64,000 nt of DNA from positions 1,674,001-1,738,000 of the forward strand of contig NZ_CP151657.1 in assembly GCF_038405225.1 (NCBI RefSeq). The letters are read 5' to 3'. A program made the position numbers and the translations under genes. The DNA is from Arthrobacter citreus (lineage in GTDB: Bacteria; Actinomycetota; Actinomycetes; Actinomycetales; Micrococcaceae). Numbering within the stretch: position 1 is the stretch's first letter; every line of letters begins with the position of its first letter. The notes below the pieces were generated by a model, which had not been told where the DNA came from, did no database searches, and worked only from the letters and a program-made list of their open reading frames with translations. Positions 55,190 through 63,091 of this stretch are shown piece after piece.

Positions 55190-55627
55190 ATGGCACGCAA
55201 CAGTTTGCTCGACAGATTCCGGCCCGTGGGAGCCCCCGGTCCAGCCGGCCCTGCCGGTGTTCCGGCAGGCGACAGCCAGGGCCCCGAAGCCGAACTCGTT
55301 CCGGTTTTCGATTCCCTGGATCCAACCATCACCCAGGCGCAGGAACTCATCGAGGACGCAAAACTGCGGGCAGACGAGACAGTCCGGCAGGCACGCGAAC
55401 GGGCGGCAGCCGAGGTTGAGCAGGCACGCCTGGACAGCGGTGCGGTTCGTGCCCGGGCGGCGGCTGAGGTATCCAGTGAGGTCGAAACCACCGACGCCCA
55501 GATGCTTCGCACCGCAGAGGATGAGGCTGCGGAGCTGAAAAGACGGGGCGAATCCCGCGTGCCGGAATTGGCAGCAGCCATCGTGGCGGATCTGGTGCAG
55601 GACCTGCTCGGAAACACGAACCCATGA
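55190..55627 (+). CDS. V/A-type ATPase peripheral stalk subunit H/G-like
   Basis: 145 residues. A Pro/Gly-rich N-terminus, then an acidic helix IEDAKLRADETVRQARERAAAEVEQARLDSGAVRARAAAEV, a coiled coil of the kind that pairs with subunit E in the stator stalk. No sequence motif fixes the name; position and coiled coil make it the G/AhaH-type subunit. ATG overlaps the end by 4 bp with the next gene. Confidence 0.75.
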   Translation: MARNSLLDRFRPVGAPGPAGPAGVPAGDSQGPEAELVPVFDSLDPTITQAQELIEDAKLRADETVRQARERAAAEVEQARLDSGAVRARAAAEVSSEVETTDAQMLRTAEDEAAELKRRGESRVPELAAAIVADLVQDLLGNTNP

Positions 55628-56655
55628 GGTCGGATTGGGTAGCGGCATCGGTGCGGGCCCGTTCCATGGCCCAGCGCCGGGTTGGCGCCGGGACCTGCCG
55701 CACAATTGCTGCTGCCCCCGGACTTCCGGCGGCCACCAGCCAGCTCGCTGACACGGTGTACGGCAGGGAACTGAAATCCGCGCAGACGCTGTCCCAGACA
55801 CACCGGGCAACCCGCAGAACCGTCCTATGGCAGCTGCGGGTGCTCGCCGGCTGGATTCCCGCCGGAGGAACCCGCCTCATCCGGGCCGCCGCGGCCGCCT
55901 TCGAGGCCGACAACATCCTCGCCCTGGATCTTCATCTGCGGCGGCAGGAGACCGGCGTCTCCCCCGCCTTTGACCTTGGCGGCTTGGCCACGGCCTGGCC
56001 ACGCCTTTCCACGGCAGCAACTGATGAAGAGCTGCGGGCTGCACTCGCCTCGTCGCCGTGGGGCGATCCGGGACCCGAGACCGCACTCGCGGACATCCTC
56101 ACGCTCGTGTGGGTACGCCGCCTTGCCGCGGAGGCCGCAGCGGTGCGTCCCTGGGCAGCAGCAGCTGCGGCACTGATTGCCGCCCGGCTGGTGCTGGTGG
56201 AGGGAACTGCGCCGGCACCGCGGCTGGTCGCTCTGCTGCGTCCCCTGCTCGGCACCGGTTGGACCGCCGCAACCGGGACCACGGAGTTGTCCAGCCCCGG
56301 ATTCCCGTCCAACCCCAAATCCAACCCCGGACTCCCGTCCAACCCCAAGTCCACCTCCGGTCTCCCGTCCGGCCCCAAATCCAACCCCGAATCCCTGCGG
56401 AATGCCCTCCCTCCGGCGGCTGCACGGGCGCTGGATGGGGTGGACCGCCCCGCCGACCTGTGGCGGGCCGAAGCAGCACTGGCGGTACGCATCGAAAGCG
56501 ACGGGTTCAGCCTGCTCCGGGCCGGGCTCCCCGGCCCTGACGTGGTCCTGGGTGCCATGGCGGTGCTGGCTGCCGATGCGTGGCGGGTCCGCGCCGCACT
56601 GGCGTCCGCCGCACTGTATGCCGGAACCAGCGAGGTGCTCGATGCCGTGGCGTGA
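55624..56655 (+). CDS. V/A-type ATPase subunit C (central stalk/socket) with decapeptide repeat
   Basis: 343 residues. The helical V-ATPase C/d fold: VAASVRARSMAQRRVGAGTCRTIAA and ...ETALADILTLVWVRRLAAEAAAVRPW. It seats rotor axis D-F on the membrane ring. Around residues 223-258 it carries three to four 10-residue repeats of the type SNPGLPSNPK, encoded by 30-bp DNA units (56291-56390), not part of the known fold. The stop lies 14 bp inside the next gene. Confidence 0.8.
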   Translation: MRSDWVAASVRARSMAQRRVGAGTCRTIAAAPGLPAATSQLADTVYGRELKSAQTLSQTHRATRRTVLWQLRVLAGWIPAGGTRLIRAAAAAFEADNILALDLHLRRQETGVSPAFDLGGLATAWPRLSTAATDEELRAALASSPWGDPGPETALADILTLVWVRRLAAEAAAVRPWAAAAAALIAARLVLVEGTAPAPRLVALLRPLLGTGWTAATGTTELSSPGFPSNPKSNPGLPSNPKSTSGLPSGPKSNPESLRNALPPAAARALDGVDRPADLWRAEAALAVRIESDGFSLLRAGLPGPDVVLGAMAVLAADAWRVRAALASAALYAGTSEVLDAVA

Positions 56656-61038: not shown

Positions 61039-62495
61039 GCACTGACGAGGGCACCACCTCCGCCGCGCAGTCCACAACCGGCACTGGGTCCACAGCCGCC
61101 TCAGCGCCGCGCGTGGGATACAGCGGCGTGCGCGAATTGCGGGGTCCGCTGCTCGTCCTCGGCGACGCGGAGGGCGTGGGCTGGGACGAATTCGCCACCG
61201 TTGGCGTCGCCGGACAGCGGGACCGGCACGGTCTGGTGCTGGAGGTGGACGGGGACGAAGTCACCCTGCAGATCCTTGAAGGCACCGGAGGAATGTCGCT
61301 GGGCGGCATCGAGGTTCGATTCCAGGGCCGCCCGCTGGCAGTGCCCACCGGCCTGGGCTGGCTTGGACGGGTCTGCAACGGGCGCGGTGAACCGCTCGAC
61401 GGCGGCCCTCCCGTCACAGCAGGACGCACGGCGCCGGTGGGCGGCTGGCCCTTGAACCCGGTGTACCGCGAACCGCCGCAGGATCCGGTCATTACCGGCA
61501 TCTCCGCCGTCGACGCCCTGACCACTTTGGTCCGGGGACAGAAACTGCCCATCTTCTCCGTTCCCGGCCTGCCGCACCTGACCCTGGCCACGCAGATCGC
61601 TGCCCAGGCCACCACGTCCTCGGGCCGGGCATTCCGGGTGGTGTTTGCCGCCATGGGCATGACGCACGCCGACATCGCCTATATCCGGGACCGGTTGGAG
61701 GAGCGCTCCGCGGCAGGGGAACTGGTGCTGCTGCTCAACGCCGCCGATGATCCGGTGATTGAACGCATCCTGACTCCGCGGATTGCGCTCACCATCGCCG
61801 AGTCCCTGGCCTATGACGAGGGCTCCGACGTCCTGGTGGTGATGTCGGATATGACCAGCTATGCCGAGGCGGTGCGGGAAGTTTCAGCGGCCCGGCGGGA
61901 AATTCCGGCCCGGCGCGGCTACCCCGGCTATCTCTACAGTGATTTGGCCGGCCTCTATGAGCGGTGCGGACGGGTTAGGGACCGGGAGGGTTCCGTGACC
62001 ATCGTTCCCGTGCTGACCATGCCGGCCGGGGACATCACCCATCCGGTTCCGGACCTCACCGGCTACATCACCGAGGGCCAGGTGGTGTTGGACCCCGACG
62101 TCGACGCGCGCGGCATCTATCCGCCCGTGGACGTGCTGGCCTCGCTGTCCCGCCTGATGCGCAGCGGCGCCGGAAAGGGGCGCACCCGGGAAGACCATCT
62201 GGATGTGGCGGCGCAGATCCTCTCGGCGATGGCGCGGGCACGCTCCGCCGCGGAACTGGCCGAACTTGTGGGAACCGCGGCACTGAGCGAAACAGACAAC
62301 GCCTACATTGAATTCCGGTCCGTGGTGGAGCGAAACCTGCTGAACCAGGGCCGCGATGAGCTGCGCACCTTTGACCAGACCATGGAGATCGCCTGGCAAG
62401 CCCTGTCGCTGCTGCCGCGGCGGGAACTGACCATGCTGTCCGGCGAATTCCTGGACAGGTACCTGCCCGGCCCCCTCGGAGGGGCACGGCTGTGA
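61035..62495 (+). CDS. V/A-type ATPase subunit B
   Basis: 486 residues. Like A in fold but without a Walker A: the P-loop position reads PIFSVPGLPHLTLATQIAAQA, as in all B subunits. VVMSDMTSYAEAVREVSAARREIPARRGYPGYLYSDLAGLYERCGR carries the arginine finger that completes A's active site. The N-terminal 35 residues are Ser/Thr-rich. Overlaps A and D by 4 bp each. Confidence 0.96.
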   Translation: MSTDEGTTSAAQSTTGTGSTAASAPRVGYSGVRELRGPLLVLGDAEGVGWDEFATVGVAGQRDRHGLVLEVDGDEVTLQILEGTGGMSLGGIEVRFQGRPLAVPTGLGWLGRVCNGRGEPLDGGPPVTAGRTAPVGGWPLNPVYREPPQDPVITGISAVDALTTLVRGQKLPIFSVPGLPHLTLATQIAAQATTSSGRAFRVVFAAMGMTHADIAYIRDRLEERSAAGELVLLLNAADDPVIERILTPRIALTIAESLAYDEGSDVLVVMSDMTSYAEAVREVSAARREIPARRGYPGYLYSDLAGLYERCGRVRDREGSVTIVPVLTMPAGDITHPVPDLTGYITEGQVVLDPDVDARGIYPPVDVLASLSRLMRSGAGKGRTREDHLDVAAQILSAMARARSAAELAELVGTAALSETDNAYIEFRSVVERNLLNQGRDELRTFDQTMEIAWQALSLLPRRELTMLSGEFLDRYLPGPLGGARL

Positions 62496-63091
62496 GCGGA
62501 TTCAGGGGCAGCGGCAGCCGCGCGGACAGGGCCGACGTGGAGCGCCGGCTGGCAACCGCCACCCGCGGAGCCGAACTGTTGGACCGTAAGCAGCGCATCC
62601 TGCAGCGCGCCATTGAAGGGCTGCAGGAGAAGGCCGACTCCACCCGGAAAGCCTGGACCGAGCAAGCCGCGGCCGCTGCACTGTGGCTGCAGCGCAGTGC
62701 CGGCTTGGACGGGGAGGACCGCATCAATGCCTCCGTCCCGGCTGACACCGCCGTCGCCGAGGTGCAGTGGGGCGGAGCAATGGGCATCTCCTACCCCGAG
62801 GGAGCACGCTGCGTGCTCCCTGCAGCTTCTCCTACCGGAGGAAGCTCCGCTCTTGCCTTCACGGCAGCCGCCCACCGGACAGCGCTCGACGCAGCCATAG
62901 CTGCGGCGAGTGCGGCACGGGCACTCTTGTTGGTGTCCGAAGAACTGGAAACCACCCGCACCCGGCAGCGGGCAGTGGAGAACCGGTGGATCCCCCTGCT
63001 GCAGGAGCAGCTGGACGAAATCAAGCGCAAAGTCGCCGAGCAGGAACTCGAGGAGAGCCTGCGCCTGCGCTGGTCCGCGGGGCTGATCTAA
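62492..63091 (+). CDS. V/A-type ATPase rotor subunit D
   Basis: 199 residues, two long antiparallel helices (LDRKQRILQRAIEGLQEKADSTRKAW and ELETTRTRQRAVENRWIPLLQEQLDEIKRKVAEQELEESLRLRW). The second helix with RTRQRAVENRWIPLL is the diagnostic D signature. The coiled coil runs through the A3B3 ring. Last gene of the operon, ending 12 bp before the convergent SDR gene; a short palindromic ACCGCGGT occurs twice in between. Confidence 0.93.
   Translation: MSGFRGSGSRADRADVERRLATATRGAELLDRKQRILQRAIEGLQEKADSTRKAWTEQAAAAALWLQRSAGLDGEDRINASVPADTAVAEVQWGGAMGISYPEGARCVLPAASPTGGSSALAFTAAAHRTALDAAIAAASAARALLLVSEELETTRTRQRAVENRWIPLLQEQLDEIKRKVAEQELEESLRLRWSAGLI

Follow-up and report, generated by a model that had tools for sequence, protein, structure and literature searches.

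The stretch of DNA analysed here, hereafter the window, comprises 64,000 nucleotides of Arthrobacter citreus (assembly GCF_038405225.1, contig NZ_CP151657.1, positions 1,674,001 to 1,738,000), whose genome is a single contig of 3.88 Mb. On the forward strand, between positions 55190 and 63091, nine overlapping genes with open frames throughout lie in the order G-C-I-K-F-E-A-B-D and encode the parts of a V/A-type rotary ATPase (Table 1). Successive genes overlap by 4, 14, 4, 4, 1, 16, 4 and 4 nucleotides. A preliminary description of the window, prepared from its letters alone, had proposed this nine-gene operon, and our analysis agreed with it on the frames, the order and the overlaps. The residues that it had singled out as intact, namely the Walker A motif of A, the arginine finger of B, Arg338 of I and Glu136 of K, were all present, and its numbering of Arg338 and Glu136 was right.

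Subunits A, B, D, I and K scored above the curated Pfam cut-offs. The matches of G, C, F and E stayed below them (E values of 0.0004 to 0.015), a point against the reading of a full enzyme, and the identity of these four follows mainly from their conserved position and from profiles built from relatives. In the catalytic head, subunit A carries PF16886 (the V/A barrel-sandwich insert) and PF00006, with the Walker A motif GGFGTGKT at residue 238 and GERGNE at residue 266, and B contributes Arg373 within SLSRLMRSG as the arginine finger. The central shaft is represented by D, together with F and C, and the membrane sector by I, with two conserved arginines (R338 and R395), and by the c-type subunit K, with the carboxylate E136. 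Subunit C additionally contains inserted repeats of SNPKS.PGLP-like units, read by eye at window positions 56300-56400. The genes of the operon are of the V/A type and not of the F type.

A complete F-type operon, comprising a, c, b, delta, alpha, gamma, beta and epsilon, each above its Pfam cut-off, was found at C1:643859-650944 of the same genome; the preliminary description had suggested a search for one outside the window operon. Its view of the window operon as a second, complete and apparently working rotary ATPase beside the F-type enzyme is supported by the full gene set and the intact residues. The guanine-cytosine (GC) content of the operon is 0.692, against 0.643 for the window upstream of it. 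Three features went beyond the preliminary description: subunit I falls about 200 residues short of the usual length, the genes stand in an unusual order and subunit K bears a leader.

Table 1 Features of the operon and of the region directly upstream, in window positions.
Feature	Position	Strand	Evidence and remarks
G/H-like stator stalk subunit, 145 amino acids	55190..55627	+	PF03179 E 0.0004, below cut-off; clade profile matches 69/80 loci
Subunit C, 343 amino acids, short SNPKS-type repeat insert	55624..56655	+	PF01992 E 0.0022, below cut-off; clade profile 68/80 loci
Subunit I, membrane stator, 446 amino acids, without cytosolic arm and far lobe	56642..57982	+	PF01496 E 2e-17; profile alignment; R338, R395
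Subunit K/c, 153 amino acids, leader and one hairpin with Glu136	57979..58440	+	PF00137 E 2e-16, residues 90-149; alignments
Subunit F, 91 amino acids	58437..58712	+	PF01990 E 0.0007, below cut-off; clade profile 76/80 loci
Subunit E, stator stalk, 175 amino acids	58712..59239	+	PF01991 E 0.015 (longer frame), below cut-off; clade profile 79/80 loci
Catalytic subunit A, 604 amino acids	59224..61038	+	NF003220 635 bits (cut-off 470); Walker A at 238
Subunit B, 486 amino acids	61035..62495	+	NF003235 583 bits (cut-off 349); Arg373
Central shaft subunit D, 199 amino acids	62492..63091	+	PF01813 E 1e-24
Terminator-like hairpin, 12-bp stem, 4-nt loop, T run	54449..54480	+	After flavin reductase gene, before ferritin gene; by eye, missed by automatic scan
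Promoter-like element CCATTGT-N17-CGTAACCTCGA	54613..54647	+	Upstream of ferritin gene; not called a sigma-70 promoter by automatic scan
EncFtn-like (encapsulated-ferritin-like) gene, directly upstream of operon	54768..55124	+	PF22277 E 1.9e-19 (longer frame from 54732)

A shortened subunit I

Subunit I was short throughout the clade of relatives described below. With a start placed beside C, it could be measured in 68 of 80 clade loci and had 410-506 amino acids (median 443) there, against 606-672 amino acids in six canonical I proteins. Each of the best 120 of 3278 profile-search matches to I was 423-487 amino acids long, and nine further loci were short without exception (9/9), the ends of C and I lying 426-507 codons apart. 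Aligning 11 clade sequences of I with six canonical ones located the deletion. The first ~45 residues were kept, as was a GWxP element around residue 70, and the canonical stretch between them was mostly without counterpart, about 190-220 residues by the runs in this alignment; the total loss from the cytosolic arm and the far lobe is put at 190-230 residues. The canonical parts largely lacking a counterpart were residues 42-287 of Rubrobacter I, 42-284 of Enterococcus gallinarum I and 50-263 of Subdoligranulum I. Profile comparison (hhalign) joined clade residue 47 to canonical residue 271 and aligned residues 47-419 to 271-647 with a probability of 100, the first 45 residues being matched by the multiple alignment alone. 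A conserved DP motif ahead of the membrane part falls at D136 in the window I and at D365 in Rubrobacter I. Moreover, R338 and R395 were invariant among 69 aligned clade I sequences, as were many other residues. The window I does not have the full cytosolic collar, an arm with two lobes, that is a trait of canonical A-ATPases.

Rotary ATPases are classed by the number of their peripheral stalks, one in F-, two in A- and three in V-type enzymes, and in A-ATPases the collar consists of subunit a/I alone, which contacts both stalks (PMC6131620). In the eukaryotic a subunit, two EG sites lie close to binding sites on the proximal and distal lobes (PMC10313074). In the clade, I keeps its membrane-near part and channel but has lost the arm and far lobe, so that it would offer one docking site. 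We tentatively put forward, as a scenario that may well prove wrong, that the enzyme represents an additional rotary ATPase architecture, in which the V/A head and shaft are held by a single peripheral stalk, one E-G docked in an F-like manner; that the deletion arose on the actinomycete stem, later than a form that combined this gene order with a full-length I, as in Subdoligranulum; and that the enzyme was then recruited into a hypoxia or dormancy programme with a translationally coupled UspA. If true, this stator would be an exception to the classing of ATPases by stalk number and would provide actinomycetes with a compact second proton motor. With the clade, furthermore, nature would supply a test of the number of stalks that rotary ATPases require.

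Distribution and origin of the operon

The gene order, too, distinguishes the clade. All nine genes lay on one strand in 63 of the 80 clade loci, 61 of which kept G-C-I-K-F-E-A-B-D; the two exceptions look like false F and G matches, judged from their coordinates. Three of the 17 incomplete loci are from Dactylosporangium (L067, L086 and L090), with subunit C upstream of G on the opposite strand, and most of the rest stop at contig ends. The canonical bacterial A-ATPase order, G-I-K-E-C-F-A-B-D, is seen in E. gallinarum and Peptoclostridium, where the first gene is annotated as hypothetical, and differs from that of the window. On a Pseudonocardia plasmid (L135 7552-14161), F, A and B were the only subunits annotated, beside a P-type ATPase gene and a tyrosine recombinase gene.

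Presence of the operon was counted by a search with the A subunit (E <= 1e-80). It was found in 27 of 29 genomes of the genus. A sample of the family gave 32 of 295 genomes in all, made up of 23/25 genus genomes and 9/270 outside the genus, the latter from five other genera. The class sample yielded 13/393, own genome included, one of them a canonical type at 46% identity, and the phylum sample 70/396, where only the own genome and two others reached at least 59% and the remainder lay at 41-50%. The operon is thus near-core in the genus and scarce elsewhere in the Actinomycetes. The preliminary description had treated a second ATPase as unusual for actinobacteria, and rarity holds for the family outside the genus; it had also named core-genome status in most Micrococcaceae as evidence that would speak against its reading, and here near-core status applies to the genus but does not extend to the family. 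The nearest A subunits in named genomes were those of Arthrobacter gandavensis JCM 13316 (94%) and other Arthrobacter, followed by A. citreus, A. koreensis and A. luteolus at 76-77%. Relatives at 57-60% also occur on four plasmid records, three from Streptomyces and one from Embleya, with sizes of 0.9-3.1 Mb; the one Streptomyces/Embleya plasmid examined had the same gene order.

Subsequently, we placed the window A subunit in a tree of 106 rows (130 thinned by 24), built by a quick method without bootstrap and with two outgroup rows on long branches. The 78 rows labelled as clade, all taken at at least 57% identity, formed one side of a branch of length 0.84 with a Shimodaira-Hasegawa-like approximate likelihood-ratio test (SH-aLRT) value of 100. 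The other 28 rows comprised Rubrobacter, a Pseudonocardia plasmid copy, canonical actinobacterial types, Firmicutes, Fusobacterium, an alphaproteobacterium, a Bacteroidota row and Pyrococcus; Thermus had no row. Groupings inside the clade were taken from an earlier 90-row tree made without 18 loci, mainly minus-strand ones. In that tree the window A grouped with its own genus and then with other Micrococcales, Streptomyces and Demequina formed groups of their own, the Mycobacteriaceae fell in two places, and Myceligenerans, Pedococcus and Cellulomonas stood away from the other Micrococcales. One contig labelled as a Proteobacteria metagenome-assembled genome (L028) sat inside the actinomycete clade beside an actinomycete metagenome-assembled genome that shares its bin prefix, BP9, and is probably misbinned.

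The placement of the clade and the groupings within it argue for an old actinomycete lineage shaped by many losses, transfers or both, and not for a recent archaeal or clostridial gift. Between these two histories the evidence is divided, and we give about an even chance to an ancient transfer among actinomycetes followed by vertical descent in the genus, as opposed to loss from an actinomycete ancestor. A transfer would account for the thin scatter of clade members over many families, for the plasmid copies and for the displaced positions of the Mycobacteriaceae, Myceligenerans, Pedococcus and Cellulomonas, whereas Streptomyces, Demequina and most Micrococcales rows group by taxonomy, as would be expected from vertical descent with losses.

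The setting of the operon bears on a more recent origin. Two genus genomes without the operon, G006 and G024, are 88-92% alike in this stretch, and their upstream genes are the same up to a ferritin-like gene. After that gene follow, in G006, a mannosidase and a thiolase gene (named by eye) and, in G024, a DUF2809 gene (assigned by Pfam), a ROK regulator, transport genes, a mannosidase and a thiolase (by eye). In the own genome, the operon is followed by a short-chain dehydrogenase/reductase gene and a ROK regulator (Pfam) and then by transport genes and a mannosidase (by eye), and in G022 the thiolase-bearing stretch comes directly after D. The operon is thus a presence/absence block confined to one place.

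The preliminary description had offered the lateral gain of an archaeal-type machine as one of two readings, and a recent acquisition of an archaeal, Thermus or clostridial V/A operon by the strain or the genus would fit both the patchy occurrence in the family and class samples and the existence of vehicles, as the four plasmid records attest. We nevertheless regard it as highly improbable, since the window A lies within a single actinomycete clade, separate from Pyrococcus, Firmicutes, Fusobacterium, Rubrobacter and the canonical actinobacterial rows; nearly all genus genomes have the operon; its GC content is not low; and other genes follow the ferritin gene at the same place in the two genomes that lack it. 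On the A tree, within the taxa that it covers, archaea and Clostridia were rejected as sources.

A possible dormancy link in relatives outside the genus

Clustering of flanking genes placed universal stress proteins (Usp) in the two largest families (20 and 16 loci), and a Usp-like gene occurred in the available flanks of 31/80 loci. Among the 62 non-genus loci with more than 600 nucleotides of downstream sequence, a Usp gene overlapped the end of D in 16, by exactly 4 nucleotides in 12 of them, and Pfam confirmed the Usp domain on one of these overlapping genes. CBS-domain genes and P-type ATPase genes, named by eye, were found at seven loci each, and both kinds lie on a Streptomyces fungicidicus plasmid.

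In Streptomyces coelicolor, OsdR sites are reported upstream of several Usp genes (PMC5069765). We built an OsdR matrix from the 22 sites printed in that paper and scanned 350 nucleotides upstream of G. An OsdR/DosR-type box with a score of at least 10 was present in 14/53 non-genus loci; 500 column-permuted palindromic matrices found 1.9 loci on average and none reached 14, and random windows of the same loci gave 3.9%. At thresholds of 11 and 12, the observed 12 was reached by one of the 500 permutations. Furthermore, 16 of the 17 sites scoring at least 9 fell between -160 and -40 relative to G (p 6e-7). Collectively, the sequences of the relatives point to hypoxia or dormancy rather than to the salt, alkaline or acid stress that the preliminary description had considered and that the analysis gave no evidence to favour or to oppose. 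If true, proton-gradient upkeep by a V/A-ATPase would join the known dormancy response of these bacteria.

Several observations weigh against this link, in general and for A. citreus in particular. The loci are related to one another, so the p values overstate independence, and the OsdR matrix was applied after weaker motif scans had been seen. In one of these, the DosR core GGGAC-N4-GTCCC gave three exact and eight one-mismatch sites among 67 loci, genus included, where, locus by locus, 0.02-0.06 of random windows did as well for the exact sites and 0.03-0.20 for the one-mismatch sites. In another, a DosR consensus scored at least 16 in 23/53 loci versus 11.3 with permuted half-sites (reached by 4/400 permutations) and at least 18 in 7/53 (reached by 11/400); the best permuted half-site resembles the OsdR site by eye. 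Box and Usp gene are not associated across loci (Fisher p 1.0), and at the thresholds used most relatives have neither. Nine previously unused loci yielded two boxes scoring at least 10 (at -71 and -88) and three Usp genes overlapping D. In the genus, none of 14 loci exceeded a score of 3.9 within 350 nucleotides upstream of G, the scan of the other genus loci covering this interval and not the stretch upstream of the ferritin gene. The window, scanned from 54416 to 55190, had a best score of 3.7 and hence no box upstream of its operon, and the genus loci examined had no coupled Usp gene; elsewhere in the own genome there are ten Usp domain matches. With neither box nor coupled Usp gene in the genus loci, the dormancy link would apply to this organism by analogy.

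In several genus loci, GGAACT-N2-AGTTCC forms a palindrome ahead of G, which was considered as an operator and rejected; because it lies at about -253 in L015, inside the ferritin gene, we took it as coding conservation. Upstream in the window (52899-53390), a 163-residue gene without a Pfam match has relatives in 14 genus loci and a Usp-like pattern by eye.

Coupling ion and proposed function

Subunit K has one Pfam hairpin with Glu136 behind a leader of ~40-85 residues, in which one or two membrane segments were read by eye; the column of E136 is one of those conserved in at least 93% of 69 K rows. At the positions of Gln and Thr in Rubrobacter K, residue types that near the carboxylate serve as Na+ ligands, the window K has V107 and G137; the Na+ ligands that mark Na+-translocating V-ATPases are absent. 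Since the c subunit is a single hairpin without such ligands, H+ is predicted as the coupling ion.

We are fairly confident that the operon encodes a working V/A-type rotary ATPase, most likely H+-coupled and used when respiration is limited, from an actinomycete subfamily set apart by its sequence, its gene order and its stator subunit I. The sequences themselves show the gene content, the key residues, the clade, the short I and, in relatives, the Usp overlaps and boxes, whereas assembly of the complex, H+ as the ion, removal of the leader, direction and physiological role are deduced from them. ATP turnover in A3B3 would rotate the D-F shaft, which would be seated via C on a ring of single-hairpin K subunits after removal of their leader. 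Protons would move between Glu136 of K and Arg338/Arg395 of I, and the head would be anchored through one or more E-G stalks to a collar of which the membrane-near part of I is what remains. Working alongside the complete F-type ATP synthase, the V/A enzyme would probably serve in ATP-driven, reversible proton pumping, keeping up the proton gradient under limited respiration or in cells that no longer grow. In some relatives outside the genus, the upstream box and a tenth gene of UspA type may tie the operon to an OsdR/DosR-type dormancy response.

A second ATP synthase instead of a pump is a lesser but serious possibility. Each two-helix hairpin of K bears one carboxylate, like the matching 74-99-residue K chains of solved V/A-ATPases, an arrangement that would imply a high H+/ATP ratio suited to synthesis. 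Against this, a complete F-type synthase is already present, and the Usp overlaps and dormancy boxes of the relatives suit a state of low respiration; direction itself cannot be read from sequence. A sodium-translocating V-ATPase serving in salt or alkaline stress, as in Enterococcus hirae, belongs to the same enzyme class and had been suggested by the preliminary description. We consider it very unlikely, because K has a single hairpin instead of two and carries Val and Gly at residues 107 and 137, sites at which one would look for polar ligands; Na+ coupling was rejected on these residues. A relic or uncoupled operon in which the ~190-230 residues missing from I reflect decay is hardly credible, since the deletion recurs in every clade locus measured, I keeps both arginines and many other invariant residues, A is 75-94% identical within the genus, and the family search showed no stop codon inside the A match in 27 genus genomes (the longer protein match of A lists one stop in 5/27).

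Relation to described systems

The V/A-ATPase as such is ordinary; the actinomycete subfamily, with an arm-less I and apparent dormancy links in some relatives, is unusual, and we found no description of it in the open-access literature searched. Within that literature, one paper, on Melissospora conviva, notes an A/V operon in an actinomycete, reporting the gain of an A/V-type ATP synthase operon for the genus and its presence there (PMC12451618). Database names for the parts, such as 'V-type ATP synthase subunit A', 'V-type ATPase 116kDa subunit family protein' and 'subunit I', do not flag the shortened I or a dormancy link among the entries listed (for I, the best 120 of 3278 matches).

The A subunit is homologous to that of the Thermus thermophilus V/A-ATPase (PDB 3a5c, 5gar and others), and proton coupling would be expected in both. 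The solved K chains that match the window K, in its hairpin part, have 99 and 74 residues, so a presequence is absent from some solved chains. The I subunit of T. thermophilus is longer, with a full collar, and its gene order differs from that of the window. In the A. citreus genome, an F-type enzyme is present as well. Both A and I are homologous to the Enterococcus V-type sodium ATPase (PDB 3vr2 and 8wci; E. hirae), with residues 114-416 of the window I matching 341-650 of 8wci_P. The Enterococcus enzyme differs in its 672-residue I, and E. gallinarum differs in the two hairpins of K and in its canonical gene order.

Closer in taxonomy, the canonical V/A operon on Rubrobacter radiotolerans plasmid 1 (NZ_CP007515.1) belongs to the same phylum and is an enzyme of the same class, and it has universal stress protein and P-type ATPase genes nearby. 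Its A subunit is nevertheless 49% identical, its I has 656 amino acids, its order is D-G-I-K-E-C-F-A-B and it falls outside the clade in the trees. The operon on Subdoligranulum variabile plasmid OY725846.1 (L140 2874-11811) has, by the clade profiles, the order G-C-I-K-F-E-A-B-D, and its A adjoins the clade (SH-aLRT 93), whereas its I is full-length at 650 amino acids; it is a possible link between the clade and the Firmicutes. The OsdR/DosR (DevR) regulons of Streptomyces and Mycobacterium resemble the surroundings of some relatives' operons in box type and Usp partners (PMC5069765). They differ in that the word 'ATPase' occurs 0 times in the available text of that paper and that the window itself is without a box.

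The upstream ferritin gene and other features

The EncFtn-like gene upstream of G (Table 1) is separated from it by 65 nucleotides in the window and by 4-182 nucleotides in 12 genus loci; the ferritin match was absent in two of 14 genus loci, L020 and L023. In the promoter-like element ahead of this gene, CCATTGT, CGTA and TCGA were invariant in 15 aligned sequences, comprising the window, 12/14 genus loci and the operon-free G006 and G024. The automatic promoter and terminator scan made no call between the ferritin gene and G. Given the conserved element, the short gap and the lack of such a call, we infer that the operon rides at least partly on the transcript of the ferritin gene. An encapsulin partner for the ferritin gene (Linocin_M18 family) had no match in the own genome, the one searched. 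Elsewhere in the window lie seven tRNA genes within 1.4 kb (41223-42604) and a flavin mononucleotide (FMN) riboswitch (35053-35198).

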